From a virus, in IMG/VR virus record IMGVR_UViG_3300025266_000004, positions 1 to 64,000 of that record: a DNA stretch of 64,000 nucleotides; one strand, written 5' to 3'. Below, one piece after another: positions 44,504 to 54,754 of this stretch. The first letter of the stretch is position 1, and every line of letters begins with the position of its first letter. A program made the position numbers and the translations under genes. The notes under the pieces were generated by a model. The model saw nothing but the letters and a program-made list of their open reading frames with translations. It made no database searches and had not been told where the DNA came from.

Positions 44504-45247
44504 ATGAATTATTATTTAGACACAGAATTTCACGAGTACAAAAAGAAGCCTTTTATAGGTAAAGCTATAGATACTATAGAACTTATTTCAATAGGTATTG
44601 TAGCAGAAGATGATAGAGAGTATTATGCTGTTAGTAACGAGTTTGATTTAAAAGCTACTTGGAGTAATGAATGGTTAAGAGATAACGTACTATTAAATAT
44701 TGTACACGACTTAGCTAGAAAAGATTACAAAGAGAAAGACGCTTATATGCACGATTTCGGTAGTTATACAAATTGGTTAAAGTATATAAAAAAAGGGAAT
44801 AACTGGGAAAAAACATGGTACAAGAGAAGTAAAGAACTTATTAATAAGTATGGTAAATCAAGAGAACAAATAGCTACTGAGATTAAAGAGTTTGTGACAA
44901 TGTCAAATGTACTAACCTTCGAACTTAGTCCTAATAGTATTAGTCCTGTTAATATGACACCTATTAATTTCTACGCATACTACGCTGACTATGATTGGGT
45001 AGTATTCTGTTGGTTATTTGGACGTATGATTGACCTACCAAAAGGATTCCCAATGTACTGTATAGATTTAAAGCAAGAGTTAGACAATAAGGCTATTGAT
45101 TTTGAAAAAGAGAGTTGGATTGGGAAAGGTAATGGAGTGGAATATCTTAAAGATAGAATAGAGTATCCTAAACAAGATAACGAACATAATGCTCTTGACG
45201 ATGCTAAATGGAATTTAAAACTACATAAGTTTATACAATCACTATGA
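44504..45247 (+). CDS. DEDDh-type 3'-5' exonuclease
   Basis: 247 residues, RNase H-fold exonuclease resembling the Rv2179c/DnaQ-like group. YYLDTEFHE gives the first acidic pair (D6, E8); the middle has FYAYYADYDWVVFCWLFGRM with its aspartate; the end has EHNALDDAKWNLKL (H228 and D232/D233), the DEDDh signature. Could degrade RNA or DNA ends. It overlaps the PD-(D/E)XK nuclease gene by 4 bases, so the two may act together. Confidence 0.8.
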   Translation: MNYYLDTEFHEYKKKPFIGKAIDTIELISIGIVAEDDREYYAVSNEFDLKATWSNEWLRDNVLLNIVHDLARKDYKEKDAYMHDFGSYTNWLKYIKKGNNWEKTWYKRSKELINKYGKSREQIATEIKEFVTMSNVLTFELSPNSISPVNMTPINFYAYYADYDWVVFCWLFGRMIDLPKGFPMYCIDLKQELDNKAIDFEKESWIGKGNGVEYLKDRIEYPKQDNEHNALDDAKWNLKLHKFIQSL

Positions 45248-46266
45248 GTACTATAAATTACACTGAAAAACGTATTATACAATTCGACGAACCTTCTCAT
45301 ACTTATACAGATGAAAGGGGAAATGAATATACATCTGCTACTACACTTATAGGTAAGTATCAGAAACCTTTTGACAGAAGATACTATCTAATGTGGACAG
45401 CTTTAAAAAGAAACAACTACAAGTTAAAATATAGTGATACTAATGCTACACAGCATATTATTACGATTAGAACTACGGGTGGTTTTAAAGACTTCAAACT
45501 TAAGTATCTTTATGATAACGAAAAGAGGATTTTAAACATATCTACTGATGCAGTTGCGGCTGAGTGGGAACATACAACTGATATAGCTTGTGACAAAGGT
45601 AACGATAAGCATAATTTCTTAGAGGATGAAATAAATAAATTTAGTTCTACACAGAATATACAATTAGATGCTCTACGTAAAGCTCAATCAGATATTAATT
45701 TCACTGGTAATTCTCTTAATAGAAAAGCACTTGATAATAGTGCTATAAGAAATAAACACCCTGAGATTTACAGTCTTTTAGTTAAGTACTTAAATGAAGG
45801 TTGGACTATACACGCAGAGAAGAGAGTATATAGTGCTTATCTTCTTGTAGCAGGTATGATTGATGTTCTTTTAACTAAGGGCAATAAATTCAAGATACTT
45901 GATTGGAAAACTAATAAGAATGAGTTGCATTTTGAAGCAGGTTATTATAAGAAGGATTTGAATGGTGTTGTATCTAAAGAATGGGTTAGAAAGAATGACA
46001 CGTTCCTGTTCCCTATAAATAATGTAAGTTACTGTAAAGGTAAAGTGTACACATTACAATTAAGTCTGTACGCACATATATTAGAGCTATGGGGATTTGA
46101 ATGTGACGAACTAATACTCTGCCATATAAGAGATATACCGAATGGTAATAAGTTTGGAGTAGTGAATGAACAGACTGAATTTAAGGTGAAGTTCTATGAT
46201 ATAAAGTTCTTAAAGACAGATATACGTAAGATGCTTACACACTTTATAAAGACAGGTAGGAAGTAG
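45244..46266 (+). CDS. PD-(D/E)XK nuclease (RecB-like)
   Basis: 340 residues. The N-terminus FDEPSHTYTDERGNEYTSAT is the usual start of this phage nuclease family. The active site is seen as E192 (AEKRVYS), D207 (VAGMIDVLL) and D220-W-K222 (ILDWKTNKNE), with YTLQLSLYAHILE as the closing helix. The family processes DNA ends in recombination or packaging. Coupled to the exonuclease gene by a 4-base overlap. Confidence 0.85.
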   Translation: MSTINYTEKRIIQFDEPSHTYTDERGNEYTSATTLIGKYQKPFDRRYYLMWTALKRNNYKLKYSDTNATQHIITIRTTGGFKDFKLKYLYDNEKRILNISTDAVAAEWEHTTDIACDKGNDKHNFLEDEINKFSSTQNIQLDALRKAQSDINFTGNSLNRKALDNSAIRNKHPEIYSLLVKYLNEGWTIHAEKRVYSAYLLVAGMIDVLLTKGNKFKILDWKTNKNELHFEAGYYKKDLNGVVSKEWVRKNDTFLFPINNVSYCKGKVYTLQLSLYAHILELWGFECDELILCHIRDIPNGNKFGVVNEQTEFKVKFYDIKFLKTDIRKMLTHFIKTGRK

Positions 46267-46338: not shown

Positions 46339-46815
46339 ATGAAAAATTACATTGGAACAAAACAACTATTAGCAAAGCCTATGACATTAGGTGAATATAA
46401 TAAGTACAGAGGATGGGATTTACCTACTGATGAAGACGGTAATAAAAAAGGTTATTTAGTAGAGTACGTAGATAGTACAGACGCTAATCACCCTGATCAT
46501 AAAGGATATATTTCTTGGAGTCCTGTAGAAGCTTTTGAAAAAGCATATAGAACTACTGACGGTTTGACATTTGGATTAGCTATAGAAGCTCTTAAACAAG
46601 GTAAGAAAGTAGCTAGAAAAGGATGGAATGGAAAAGGAATGTGGTTAAGATATATTAATCCTTACCATAATACACAATATTCAATAGCCGAATTATCAGA
46701 CATTGAAGGTACATTAATGCCATATATTGCAATGAAAACTGTAGATAACGGTCTAATACCTTGGTTAGCTAATCAAACGGATATTATAATTGAAGATTGG
46801 ATAATAGTTGAATAA
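46339..46815 (+). CDS. tad2: Anti-Thoeris Tad2-like protein fused to a conserved N-terminal domain
   Basis: 158 residues. The C-terminal half (about 76-158) is a DUF2829 domain: LTFGLAIEALKQGKKVARKG, a W-N-G-K-G-M-W-L segment, LMPYIAMKTVDNG and a DWIIVE end. DUF2829 proteins include Tad2, which sequesters the cyclic ADP-ribose isomer signal of the Thoeris defence system. The N-terminal half (KNYIGTKQLLAKPMTLGEYN, GYLVEYVDST, HKGYISWSP) is a separate domain often fused to DUF2829. Anti-Thoeris activity is inferred from the family; specific signal binding is untested. Confidence 0.8.
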   Translation: MKNYIGTKQLLAKPMTLGEYNKYRGWDLPTDEDGNKKGYLVEYVDSTDANHPDHKGYISWSPVEAFEKAYRTTDGLTFGLAIEALKQGKKVARKGWNGKGMWLRYINPYHNTQYSIAELSDIEGTLMPYIAMKTVDNGLIPWLANQTDIIIEDWIIVE

Positions 46816-46818
46816 GAT

Positions 46819-47448
46819 ATGAGTAAATATATATATTTATTAGATGCAGGTCACGGTGGTATAGATGATAATAACGTCTATACCACTAGTGGTAAAAGGA
46901 GTCCTATTTGGAAAGATACAAATGAACAGTATTTCGAAGGAGAAGGTAATAGAATAATAAGAGACGAATTAGCTGTTGAACTAAGTCGTAAAGGTATTAA
47001 GTATCATTACGTTTCAGTAGGTAGTAAGGATGTCGGTTTAAAAGAACGTGTTGCTGTAATCAATGCTTATTGTGATGCTTACGGTAAAGACAATGTGATA
47101 CTTATTTCTATACATTCTAACGGTGCTTCAAACCCTCTTGGACAAGGATGGGAAGTATATACTAGTAGAGGACAAACTAAGAGTGATCCTATAGCTACTG
47201 TATTTTACAATGAAGCCTTACAAGAGTTTCCACGTAGAAAGTTTAGAAAAGATACTAAGGATGGTGATGTTGATAAAGAAGCTAATTTTTATATTATAGC
47301 AAAGAGTAAATGTCGTGCTATACTAACAGAGAATTTCTTTATGACAAATAAGTATGAATGTCAGAATATTTTACTAACTAAATCAGGTCTAAGTAAAATA
47401 GCAAACTTACACCTCAACGGAATATTACAAGTAGAAAAGAAATTATAA
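46819..47448 (+). CDS. N-acetylmuramoyl-L-alanine amidase (endolysin)
   Basis: 209 residues, Amidase_3-type zinc enzyme that cleaves the peptidoglycan amide bond at lysis. Zinc and catalytic residues are visible: DAGHGG (H12), GEGNR with E42, ISIHSNGA (H99) and ILTENFF (E171). No signal peptide is seen, so a holin or similar is needed; small membrane proteins at 62039 and 62337 are candidates. Directly follows the Tad2-like gene and precedes terminase. Confidence 0.9.
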   Translation: MSKYIYLLDAGHGGIDDNNVYTTSGKRSPIWKDTNEQYFEGEGNRIIRDELAVELSRKGIKYHYVSVGSKDVGLKERVAVINAYCDAYGKDNVILISIHSNGASNPLGQGWEVYTSRGQTKSDPIATVFYNEALQEFPRRKFRKDTKDGDVDKEANFYIIAKSKCRAILTENFFMTNKYECQNILLTKSGLSKIANLHLNGILQVEKKL

Positions 47449-47449
47449 A

Positions 47450-49543
47450 ATGGCTATTAGTTACGAGAACGGTTTATATAAGAATGATGATGATTTAACA
47501 TTTGTTAATATGGAGTACTTTCGTGAACCTGCGAAGTACTTTTTAAAGCATGGTGTTTATACACACGAACCGTTTGGTTCTCCTAGATACCTTGCGTATT
47601 GGGACGAACAAGATAAAAGATGTAGAGAAGGATATACTGTAGGTGGTGTTACTTTAACAGGTGAACATTATGGGTATTTAAACTTTGCACAAATCAAGGT
47701 AACACAAGATGCTAATAAGTCTGCTTATAAAGAAGCTAAGAAGGATGGACATACTCAAAAAGCAAAGAGACAATCAGCTGAGAAGAAAGTTACTTTTCCT
47801 GATTTCTATGATGGTGATTACCATTACTTTAAAGCTAAGGAGTTCGCTAGGGAACAAGGTCTTCATTTATGTGTAGGTAAAGCTAGACGTAAGGGATACT
47901 CATATAAGAATGGTTGGATTGGTGCTAACAGGTATAACTTATATCCACAGAGTATTACTGTGATAGGTGCATTCTCTAGTAGTTATCTATATCCTCGTGG
48001 TACTATGTCGATGGTTAAAGAATATCTTGATTTTCTTAATAAACATACTGATTGGGAAAAGAAGAGACTACTTAGTAATATGTCTCATATGAAGTCTGGT
48101 TATAAGTATGTAGGACAAGATGAAGAGCATGGTTTCTTAAGTGAGGTTATTGCTGTTAGTTTTGGACCTGCTAATCCAGGTGCAGCTAGGGGTAAAGATG
48201 GTACTCTATTTATGTTTGAAGAAGCAGGTAAGTTTCCTAATCTAATTGAGAGTTTAACATCTACTGCTCCTGCTGTAGAGGATGGTGTCTTTGTTACTGG
48301 TCAAATACTTATATTTGGTACTGGTGGAGATGATGCTTCTAACTGGGATGGGTTCGAGGAAATATTCTATGACCCTGAGACTTATAATATGCTTGCTTTT
48401 GATAATATATGGGATGACAATGCTGAAGGTACTTCATGTGGTTTCTTTGTACCTCAAATAAGAAACCTCCCAGGTTTTATAGATAAGGACGGTAATAGTT
48501 TAACTGCTGCTGCTTTAGAACATGAGACATCTATTAGAGATAGTATTAAGAAGACATCTAAAACTAGTACTAAGTTAAGTGGTTACCAAATGGAGTACCC
48601 TAACAAACCTAGTGAAGCTTTTGCAAGGAATACAAATAACATCTTCCCTACTATTGAGATTGATGCACAACTAAAGCTAGTACAGAATGATGGTAATATT
48701 AAATACCTAGGTAGACAAGGTGTTTATAAAGATACTGCAAAAGGTGTTATACTAGTACAAGAAGATACAAAAGGAAAAGATTATGAATACATTAAAGAAT
48801 TTCCACTTAAAAAAGGTAGCCATGTCGATGTTGATGGGTGTATTGTTGAATTTCAACCTCCTTACACTTTACCTGATGGTAGAATACCTCAAGGTTTATA
48901 TAGGATATGGAATGACCCTTATGCACAGGACAAAGACACTGATGCGATAACTACAAAGGATTCTCTAGGAGCTACTTATGTATATGAGGTTACTAATAGG
49001 TTTACAGGAAGTAAAGGAGATATTCTAGTAGCTGCTTATGTAGGTAGACCACCGTCTATGGATGCGTACAATAAACAACTATATCTTTTAGCTAAGAGAT
49101 ACGGTGGTGCCCCAGGTATGGTACAGTTCGAGAATGATAGGGGTGATGTAAAGAATTACTTTAAGAAGATGAAAGCATATCATTTACTTGCTGACGAACC
49201 TGAGGTAACATGGAAACGAGAACTCCAATCAGCTAAGACTGGAAGGGTTAAAGGTATCATGATGAATGCTAAGAGAAAAGGTACTGCCGCAATCTATTTA
49301 AGGGATTGGCTTTTAGATAAGAGAGGAGAAGACGAGAACGGCAACGATGTTTTGAATTTAAACTATATATACGACGAAGGACTACTAAAAGAGTTGCTAA
49401 AGTGGCATATAAAAGGTAACTTCGATAGAGTTTCGGCAATGCTTGTTGGTATGTTCGATTATAGAGAGGTTGAGACACAGGAAGAAATACAGGCTACGGG
49501 TGGTGCTCAGAATAATTTTTTCAGTAAGAGTTTATTTAAATAA
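47450..49543 (+). CDS. terL: Large terminase subunit (TerL)
   Basis: 697 residues; packages DNA into proheads. ATPase: a Walker A-like GKARRKGYS (143-151, deviant, as in crAss-like terminases) and Walker B TLFMFEEAG (252-260; E257, E258). The C-terminal nuclease begins at YRIWNDPYAQD (D489) and continues through ITTKDSLGATYVYE and PGMVQFENDRGDVKN. Directly precedes the portal gene, the standard order. Confidence 0.88.
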   Translation: MAISYENGLYKNDDDLTFVNMEYFREPAKYFLKHGVYTHEPFGSPRYLAYWDEQDKRCREGYTVGGVTLTGEHYGYLNFAQIKVTQDANKSAYKEAKKDGHTQKAKRQSAEKKVTFPDFYDGDYHYFKAKEFAREQGLHLCVGKARRKGYSYKNGWIGANRYNLYPQSITVIGAFSSSYLYPRGTMSMVKEYLDFLNKHTDWEKKRLLSNMSHMKSGYKYVGQDEEHGFLSEVIAVSFGPANPGAARGKDGTLFMFEEAGKFPNLIESLTSTAPAVEDGVFVTGQILIFGTGGDDASNWDGFEEIFYDPETYNMLAFDNIWDDNAEGTSCGFFVPQIRNLPGFIDKDGNSLTAAALEHETSIRDSIKKTSKTSTKLSGYQMEYPNKPSEAFARNTNNIFPTIEIDAQLKLVQNDGNIKYLGRQGVYKDTAKGVILVQEDTKGKDYEYIKEFPLKKGSHVDVDGCIVEFQPPYTLPDGRIPQGLYRIWNDPYAQDKDTDAITTKDSLGATYVYEVTNRFTGSKGDILVAAYVGRPPSMDAYNKQLYLLAKRYGGAPGMVQFENDRGDVKNYFKKMKAYHLLADEPEVTWKRELQSAKTGRVKGIMMNAKRKGTAAIYLRDWLLDKRGEDENGNDVLNLNYIYDEGLLKELLKWHIKGNFDRVSAMLVGMFDYREVETQEEIQATGGAQNNFFSKSLFK

Positions 49544-53269: not shown

Positions 53270-54754
53270 ATGAACGGAAGCAACTCAACTAATGCTAGAG
53301 TCTTGTATCACGATAGACATGACTCTACAGGGTTTACAAATGAGAATACATTAGCTAATGCCTTACTCTCAAAACCAGATCAATTAAATCCTGTAATCAC
53401 TCACCTACAAGGTAGAGAAGATAATAGGTTTCCATTGTCTTTTATGACAGAAGGACAAAAAGGTGGAACACGAACTATTGAACTTAATGATGTACAATAT
53501 GATTGGAATACTTTTAGAAGATTAAGAACTACTGATACAGTTGTTTCTAGTGCATATACTTCTTCTAGTAAAGCAGGTATTGGTCACGGTTACTTCTATG
53601 TTACTTTTAAAGAGAACTGGTTAAAGCAACAAAGAACTGTTGAATCACCTAATGGTACTCGTGCTAGAATCATGGGTAAAGCAATGCAAGATGGTAGTAA
53701 TTTTAAATATACTTTACAAATTATTACAACTGATATTGGAGCATTTGTAGATCCTACTCAATTTGCTGCTGGAACTATATGGGGTTCTGTAGGTGGATCG
53801 TCTGTTTCTGAATCATACTCTAAGGGTAATGAAAGTAATGTTACAACTCCAGGTAAAATAAAGAATCAAATTAACTTCTTAAGAAAGAGTTATGAGATAG
53901 GTGGAAATTTAGCTAACAAGACTGTCGAAGTTCAGTTTAATGTTAATGGTAAAATGACTAACTACTGGATTGATTTCGAGAGATGGCAACATATGATTGA
54001 TTGGAAAGCTTCTTGTGAAGAGGAGTACTGGTATTCTACTTATAATAGAAACTCTAGTGGTGTTGTTACAATGAATGACCCTGATACTGGATTACCTATT
54101 CCAATGGGAGCTGGTTTATTAGATCAAATTCCTAATCATGATACGTATAGTGAATTGACTGCACAGAAGATTAAAAGAACTGTTGCTGATGTTATGTATG
54201 GTGCTACTGATACAGGTAACATGGACATTACTTTATATACTGGTGAAGGTGGAGCTGAAGAGTTTGACAACGCTATGAAAGATGAAGCTAGTGGATTCAA
54301 TCTTGTAGCTAACGCTAATGTAGGTGATAAATTCGTTAAAGGTGGTACTGGAAGTAGAAACTTAATGTATGGTGCTTACTTTACTCAATATCAACACGTA
54401 GATGGACATACAGTTACTCTTAAAAAGGTTAACTTATTCGATCATGGTGGTAGAGCTGCTGTATCTAACAGACATCCTGTTACAGGTAAACCTCTTGAAT
54501 CATATAGAATGGTATTTGTGGATCAATCTGTTTACGATGGTGAAAGAAATGTTCAAATGGTTACTCAAAAAGGAAGAGGAATGATTACTGGTATACTTAA
54601 GGGTATGGCGCCGACTCCTTATGACTTTAAAGGTAACAACGATATGAACATCGCTACTGATCAAGATAAGTCTAGTGTACATTTCTTATCTGCTAAGGGT
54701 GTTGCTATTAGACGTAATACACATTGTTTCCAATTAACGTGTGATATTTCATAA
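53270..54754 (+). CDS. Major capsid protein (crAss-like)
   Basis: 494 residues, expected HK97 fold. The sequence order (PDQLNPVITHLQGREDNRFP, GGTRTIELNDVQYDWNTFRR, GYFYVTFKENWLK) fits the capsid family of crAss-like phages. It ends with DFKGNNDMNIATDQDKSSVHFL and a C-terminal ...RRNTHCFQLTCDIS. Position directly after the scaffold-type gene and before a terminator (54779-54805) fits a highly expressed product. Confidence 0.85.
   Translation: MNGSNSTNARVLYHDRHDSTGFTNENTLANALLSKPDQLNPVITHLQGREDNRFPLSFMTEGQKGGTRTIELNDVQYDWNTFRRLRTTDTVVSSAYTSSSKAGIGHGYFYVTFKENWLKQQRTVESPNGTRARIMGKAMQDGSNFKYTLQIITTDIGAFVDPTQFAAGTIWGSVGGSSVSESYSKGNESNVTTPGKIKNQINFLRKSYEIGGNLANKTVEVQFNVNGKMTNYWIDFERWQHMIDWKASCEEEYWYSTYNRNSSGVVTMNDPDTGLPIPMGAGLLDQIPNHDTYSELTAQKIKRTVADVMYGATDTGNMDITLYTGEGGAEEFDNAMKDEASGFNLVANANVGDKFVKGGTGSRNLMYGAYFTQYQHVDGHTVTLKKVNLFDHGGRAAVSNRHPVTGKPLESYRMVFVDQSVYDGERNVQMVTQKGRGMITGILKGMAPTPYDFKGNNDMNIATDQDKSSVHFLSAKGVAIRRNTHCFQLTCDIS

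Follow-up and report, generated by a model that had tools for sequence, protein, structure and literature searches.

A conserved N-terminal domain fused to a Tad2-like protein of a crAss-like phage recurs on several families of phage nucleotide-signal sponges

Introduction

Single-domain phage sponges for nucleotide immune signals are regarded as distinct families, each with its own target. The closest described relatives of the protein considered here belong to the Tad2 family. ModTad2, from a Myroides odoratus prophage (9eib, 8v3e), was solved with histidine-ADP-ribose (His-ADPR), and SPO1 Tad2 (Gp34.65; 8sme, 8smf, 8smg) with glyco-cyclic ADP-ribose (gcADPR); according to a secondary source, MoTad2 blocks type II Thoeris via His-ADPR binding and SPO1 Tad2 blocks type I Thoeris via gcADPR binding (PMC13299392). 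The family is functionally diverse, with HgmTad2 and SptTad2 binding cyclic dinucleotides too (PMC12043709 and PDB titles), and in the broad-range members the cyclic-dinucleotide site is carried by a long insert (PMC12043709). Here we describe a gene at positions 46339 to 46815 of a 64,000-nucleotide stretch of DNA (positions 1 to 64,000 of the 81 kb viral record IMGVR_UViG_3300025266_000004; the whole stretch is referred to as the window), whose product joins a Tad2-like domain to an unnamed N-terminal domain (NTD).

Among the other phage proteins that carry the same NTD are two characterised groups. PF13876 corresponds to Acb4, an experimentally validated sponge for 3'3'-cyclic GMP-AMP (3'3'-cGAMP), the signal of a cyclic-oligonucleotide-based antiphage signalling system (CBASS), and its discoverers remarked on unexplained extensions on some of the homologs (PMC11722364). 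Phage RyR-domain proteins (PF02026), which include RyDEP, rescue phage from Thoeris and hydrolyse or sequester 2' and 3' cyclic ADP-ribose, abbreviated 2'cADPR and 3'cADPR (PMC13232231). The common function of the validated partner families is removal of a nucleotide alarm signal, while fold and ligand differ. We propose, with moderate confidence, that the window protein is a two-module counter-defence sponge, in which a Tad2 half that would bind an ADP-ribose (ADPR) signal is joined to an interchangeable NTD with a binding function of its own.

A Tad2-like half joined to a conserved N-terminal domain

The gene and its parts are as follows.
46339..46815, + strand: NTD-Tad2 fusion gene, 158 residues, ATG to TAA, with the phrog_872 architecture
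46339..46557, + strand: NTD (residues 1-73), unnamed, conserved in tblastn relatives and with an AlphaFold2 fold
46567..46809, + strand: Tad2-like domain PF11195 (residues 77-157), a profile match; closest solved relative ModTad2 (9eib/8v3e)

By profile, predicted fold and conserved residues the C-terminal half is assigned to the Tad2 family, as a first-pass annotation made from the sequence alone had proposed for this DUF2829 region. PF11195 matches residues 77-157 with a score of 87 bits, where the cut-off is 25 bits (E 1.2e-24), the match was found independently in nucleotide coordinates (46567-46809), and when the AlphaFold2 model was compared with the PDB by Foldseek, all 24 matches with E < 0.001 were Tad2. 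A phmmer search of the PDB and Foldseek agree on ModTad2, solved with its His-ADPR ligand, as the best match, with 47% identity to the Tad2 half, the same fold and a short insert; it differs in being a single domain of 88-89 residues without an NTD. SPO1 Tad2 has the conserved core motif but is likewise a single domain, with 36-43% identity in the Foldseek alignments. PADLOC and NCBIfam searches with the window protein gave no match.

The first-pass annotation had named loss of the ligand-binding residues as a point that would speak against its assignment, and we looked for such losses in the columns that do not vary among 54 aligned full-length relatives, a set chosen by invariance and expected to include residues near the ligand. 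The window protein keeps R93, G95, W96, N97, G98 and K99, and likewise W142, Q146, D148, D153 and W154; it departs at one near-invariant position, with N145 where 51 of the 54 relatives have serine (S145N).

The N-terminal half is a conserved domain, as had also been claimed. Its motif is Y.GxK..A.PM...YN..RGW ... GYLVEY.D ... GYISWSP...F..AYR. A tblastn search with the 73-residue NTD only matched 130 phage records, and AlphaFold2 models the NTD confidently (per-block pLDDT about 85-98) in the order beta-beta-alpha-beta-beta-alpha, with predicted strands at residues 2-5, 9-14, 38-43 and 57-62 and helices at 17-24 and 63-69. A like fold is given for the NTD where it stands ahead of a helical hairpin. 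The PDB gave no lead to the NTD's fold or role, since neither a sequence nor a structure relative was found there. We also considered that NTD plus hairpin, a beta sheet with two helices, might be a cryptic Tad1, and dropped this when Foldseek against the PDB returned no Tad1.

The combination of the two domains is not particular to this phage but a common architecture. The whole protein aligns with phrog_872 over residues 1-158 (E 7.8e-57), so that both NTD and Tad2 are covered at full length, and 90 phage records cover most of the protein, coliphage N4 gp49 among them. The phrog_872 proteins of N4 (gp49), Klebsiella KP8 and Escherichia Kapi1 have the identical full-length architecture and are uncharacterised. 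Identity for the phage homologs is about 45-53%, and the window member belongs to a Crassvirales genome. NTD-Tad2 proteins are already in databases, labelled DUF2829, anti-CRISPR or hypothetical.

The N-terminal domain on other sponge families

To survey its partners, 74 non-redundant proteins were collected with the NTD profile alone, and 61 of these carry Tad2, Acb4 or Tad1. A scan of bacterial genomes with a single NTD sequence found Tad2 or Acb4 in 12 of 15 loci. An NTD profile trained on Tad2 fusions only recovers crAssphage gp41 (1.8e-8), SonariX (3.2e-8) and TG1 (9.9e-5), and gave 0 matches to 12,396 reversed decoy proteins. The domain is strongly conserved over phages and prophages whose hosts span several bacterial phyla, regardless of the partner and the partner's ligand, and is nearly always present in a single copy, mostly at the N-terminus.

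Acb4, whose fold and ligand (3'3'-cGAMP) differ from those of Tad2, is either joined to this NTD or encoded next to it, and one of the fusions is in the prototype crAssphage (Carjivirus communis). Its gp41 (L249 2501-2950) has the same NTD and also comes from the Crassvirales, with Acb4 as partner instead of Tad2; the prototype crAssphage, the best-known gut phage, is thus predicted to have a modular anti-CBASS sponge of the NTD+Acb4 type.

Fusions to RyR occur in Yersinia TG1, Escherichia 4HA13 and Pectobacterium phages, and 14 phage records cover at least 80% of the TG1 query. RyDEP and the other phage RyR proteins share with Tad2 the targeting of ADPR-type Thoeris signals (PMC13232231) but have an unrelated fold and act as a glycosidase or sponge for 2'/3' cADPR. 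In both TG1 and Vibrio phage 1.151.O the RyR domain retains H75, W78, H100 and D117 with the exact spacing 0/+3/+25/+42, the ligand residues and spacing being those of PMC13232231. In that study only R12-like domains were purified, and therefore an attached NTD would have escaped the assay; among the homologs was a sponge-type protein of Pectobacterium phage origin (PMC13232231). Pectobacterium phages encode NTD-RyR fusions, which may or may not include the assayed protein.

A Tad1 fusion is present in L179, the tail of which matches a solved Tad1 in the PDB (8.5e-13). Triple fusions of NTD, hairpin and Tad2 are found in Bacteroides and Paraprevotella elements, and one of NTD, Acb4 and Tad2 in L226. 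In L097 (498-1457) a 320-residue frame has, after NTD-Tad2, another Tad2-like repeat that is degenerate (E 0.3). The NTD also occurs as stand-alone genes of about 70-82 residues (L083, L084, L093); phages with the NTD by itself include Erwinia Fifi051 (gp23), SonariX and Aeromonas Avpd1. The Enterobacter phage SonariX, besides its stand-alone NTD, encodes an Acb2/Tad1-hairpin protein (5.9e-15) followed by an overlapping, similar-looking small open reading frame (L242 1480-1991). Two annotation errors were noted: the stand-alone NTD of Erwinia Fifi051 (81 residues, L083 2480-2725) is labelled virion RNA polymerase, and an NTD-hairpin reading frame of Klebsiella K17alpha62 (L096 920-1408) is contained in a pseudogene that bears this label too.

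The helical hairpin is PF21825 (crAss001_48), an uncharacterised family that is fused to the NTD, to Acb4 and to Tad2. Its gene directly follows NTD-Tad2 in KP8-like phages and in L114, and in Stenotrophomonas phages it forms the C-terminus of a MazG-related protein. We regard it as a second orphan module of the sponge network (L254 1459-1689, L114 3426-3683, L253 904-1704, L096 1211-1408). We rejected PF21825 as an Acb2/Tad1-type sponge after searches with Pfam, with hhalign, against PDB sequences and with Foldseek; the PF24729 (Acb2/Tad1 hairpin) profile had no match in the NTD-hairpin records, hhalign of PF21825 with an Acb2-like protein gave a probability of 0.3%, and the PDB returned no match.

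Domain exchange and association with Acb4

Two pairs of loci bear patterns of DNA identity that we read as direct signs of domain exchange. In loci L267 and L268 the DNA ahead of the NTD and across it is 93-100% identical, and identity drops to about 50% where Tad2 in one is replaced by Acb4 in the other; between L239 (hairpin) and L066 (Tad2) the patch of identity is limited to the NTD. An NTD tree (71 columns, 139 rows) calls for at least 43 changes of partner state; it is poorly resolved and supports swapping weakly, in addition to the DNA patterns.

Acb4 is also found as a separate gene close to the fusion. Among 67 non-redundant loci (90 kb searched), 21 have it within 700 nucleotides of NTD-Tad2, compared with 2 matches in 261 kb farther away and none in a control of 42 amidase loci (355 kb). 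In N4, gp48 (Acb4) and gp49 (NTD-Tad2) are an adjoining pair beside the virion RNA polymerase (L082 2106-2959), predicted to constitute a sponge operon in a laboratory phage, and in KP8 the Acb4, NTD-Tad2 and hairpin genes lie in a single cluster. Acb4 was not found in the window's own genome.

Possible roles of the N-terminal domain

In the mechanism that we propose, the Tad2 half would assemble, probably as a tetramer, and bind an ADP-ribose-type signal without cleavage, by extension from its solved relative. The ligand would be a TIR-made Thoeris signal, most likely His-ADPR (type II) or else a cyclic ADPR isomer, and activation of the Thoeris effector would be prevented. Comparison of sequences shows that the NTD is an interchangeable module on at least four unrelated sponge families (Tad2, Tad1, Acb4 and RyR/RyDEP). 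In the least certain step, the NTD would add binding of its own, most likely of a further nucleotide-type signal, to give a bi-specific sponge.

Several observations sit poorly with this reading. Nine of the 74 proteins collected with the NTD profile have only the PF21825 hairpin beside the NTD and four have no recognised partner; sequence and structure searches of Pfam, NCBIfam, PADLOC and the PDB gave no relative of the NTD; there is a single fusion of NTD to WDGH (PF25311; L270 954-1589) in a Bacteroidota metagenome-assembled genome; and the S145N substitution falls in the Tad2 half itself. The WDGH domain may by its association with the NTD in L270 be a candidate anti-defence module.

The strongest competing explanation, to which we assign an appreciable though minority share of belief, is that the NTD is an adaptor common to sponges, which would connect them to a shared host or phage protein, to the virion, or into larger assemblies for avidity or stability, while the Tad2 half alone binds signal. 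Because the NTD is constant across partners and phyla, whatever the partner or its ligand, it behaves as expected for a domain with a constant target; it is nearly always a single, mostly N-terminal copy, and near-identical NTDs serve different sponges, as in the L267/L268 pair. Oligomers of Tad2, Acb4 and RyDEP, however, form in its absence (PMC12043709, PMC11722364, PMC13232231), which makes a purely oligomerising NTD less likely. The stand-alone NTD genes also argue against an adaptor, as does NVP1151O_61 of Vibrio phage 1.151.O (L255 925-1611), a fusion of Acb4 to RyR without an NTD. This protein, predicted to be a two-signal sponge for CBASS and Thoeris, fits an arrangement of beads on a string, in which the NTD would be another bead.

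Binding by the NTD itself is the reading that we prefer, because stand-alone NTDs exist, the characterised modules of the network bind nucleotides, and sponge is joined to sponge in the Acb4-RyR protein. Either role is conjecture, an adaptor being almost as likely, with binding preferred by a little. The first-pass annotation had suggested that the fusion may widen the range of signals bound, a possibility to which the presence of this NTD on three other validated sponge families lends indirect support. In its wider form, which we put forward tentatively and with less than even confidence, the NTD would be a nucleotide-signal sponge family of its own, alone or joined to Tad2, Tad1, Acb4 or RyR, and the window protein and hundreds of other phage proteins, including N4 gp49 and crAssphage gp41, would be multi-specific sponges built from exchangeable binding domains.

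Expected ligand of the Tad2 half

The loop between M101 and Y129 of the window protein is short, at 28 residues where relatives span 9-45, and in alignments with PDB entries the inserts of 8kbi and 8wjd are longer, as is the loop of ModTad2 by 2 residues. Because the broad-range members carry a long insert and the loop here is short, the ligand is by analogy most likely of the ADPR type and cyclic dinucleotides are not expected; His-ADPR, and with it type II Thoeris, is favoured because ModTad2 is the closest solved relative. It is unlikely, in our judgement, that the protein is a sponge with a target outside Thoeris, its Tad2 half having drifted to another nucleotide such as a CBASS cyclic dinucleotide or a novel signal. 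The diversity of the family, with HgmTad2 and SptTad2 as examples, and the departure at S145N are compatible with such a drift, but the closest solved relative binds His-ADPR.

Genome context

Other features of the window are listed here, the exonuclease for context only.
45244..46266, + strand: PD-(D/E)XK-type exonuclease, upstream neighbour (phrog_298, 6.8e-20)
46819..47448, + strand: N-acetylmuramoyl-L-alanine amidase, endolysin (Amidase_3 PF01520, 4.6e-20; phrog_435)
47450..49543, + strand: terminase large subunit (TerL), 33-37% identity to crAss-like and Flavobacterium phages
53270..54754, + strand: Crassvirus major capsid protein PF23898 (profile match, 8.6e-73)

The window genome is placed in the Crassvirales (crAss-like, gut-type phages) because of its Crassvirus major capsid protein and the likeness of its TerL to those of crAss-like and Flavobacterium phages, and its host is therefore probably a Bacteroidota bacterium. 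The same region is present on a second viral contig (L119/L273).

NTD-Tad2 is followed after a gap of 3 nucleotides by the amidase endolysin and then by TerL. The first-pass annotation was right that an endolysin gene adjoins, but a meaning of this placement as such is not supported. The gene is missing from the 42 other amidase neighbourhoods examined and from distant TerL relatives; the endolysin neighbourhood was thus rejected as a conserved locus, and on the same grounds we class the gene as accessory in this genome. Elsewhere the neighbours vary, with endolysin and holin beside it in the window and Vibrio D478, terminase in Kapi1 and KPC3phi13.3, capsid genes in phiAH14a, and virion RNA polymerase in N4 and KP8. 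That the protein is an accessory to lysis, packaging or the virion with an incidental likeness to Tad2, as these neighbours might suggest, is highly improbable, since the neighbour changes from phage to phage so that no one structural role would suit, the partners that recur in fusions and operons are sponges and not lysis or packaging proteins, and expression with late genes would be explained by Thoeris sensing the major capsid protein (PMC12578639).

Discussion

What appears to be new is the NTD as a mobile module among sponge families, the Tad2 domain and the NTD-Tad2 fusion being already known. Neither a name for the NTD nor its sharing among sponge families was found in the literature searched, from which subscription journals were mostly absent. 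The NTD is probably an unrecognised part of the phage silencing of bacterial immunity. It offers a bait for new anti-defence proteins, with the domains fused to it, such as the PF21825 hairpin and WDGH, becoming candidates. If one small domain does link four sponge families, its target is directly testable, as the NTD is small, confidently predicted and present in the model phage N4, and phages would own a modular kit against nucleotide-based immunity.
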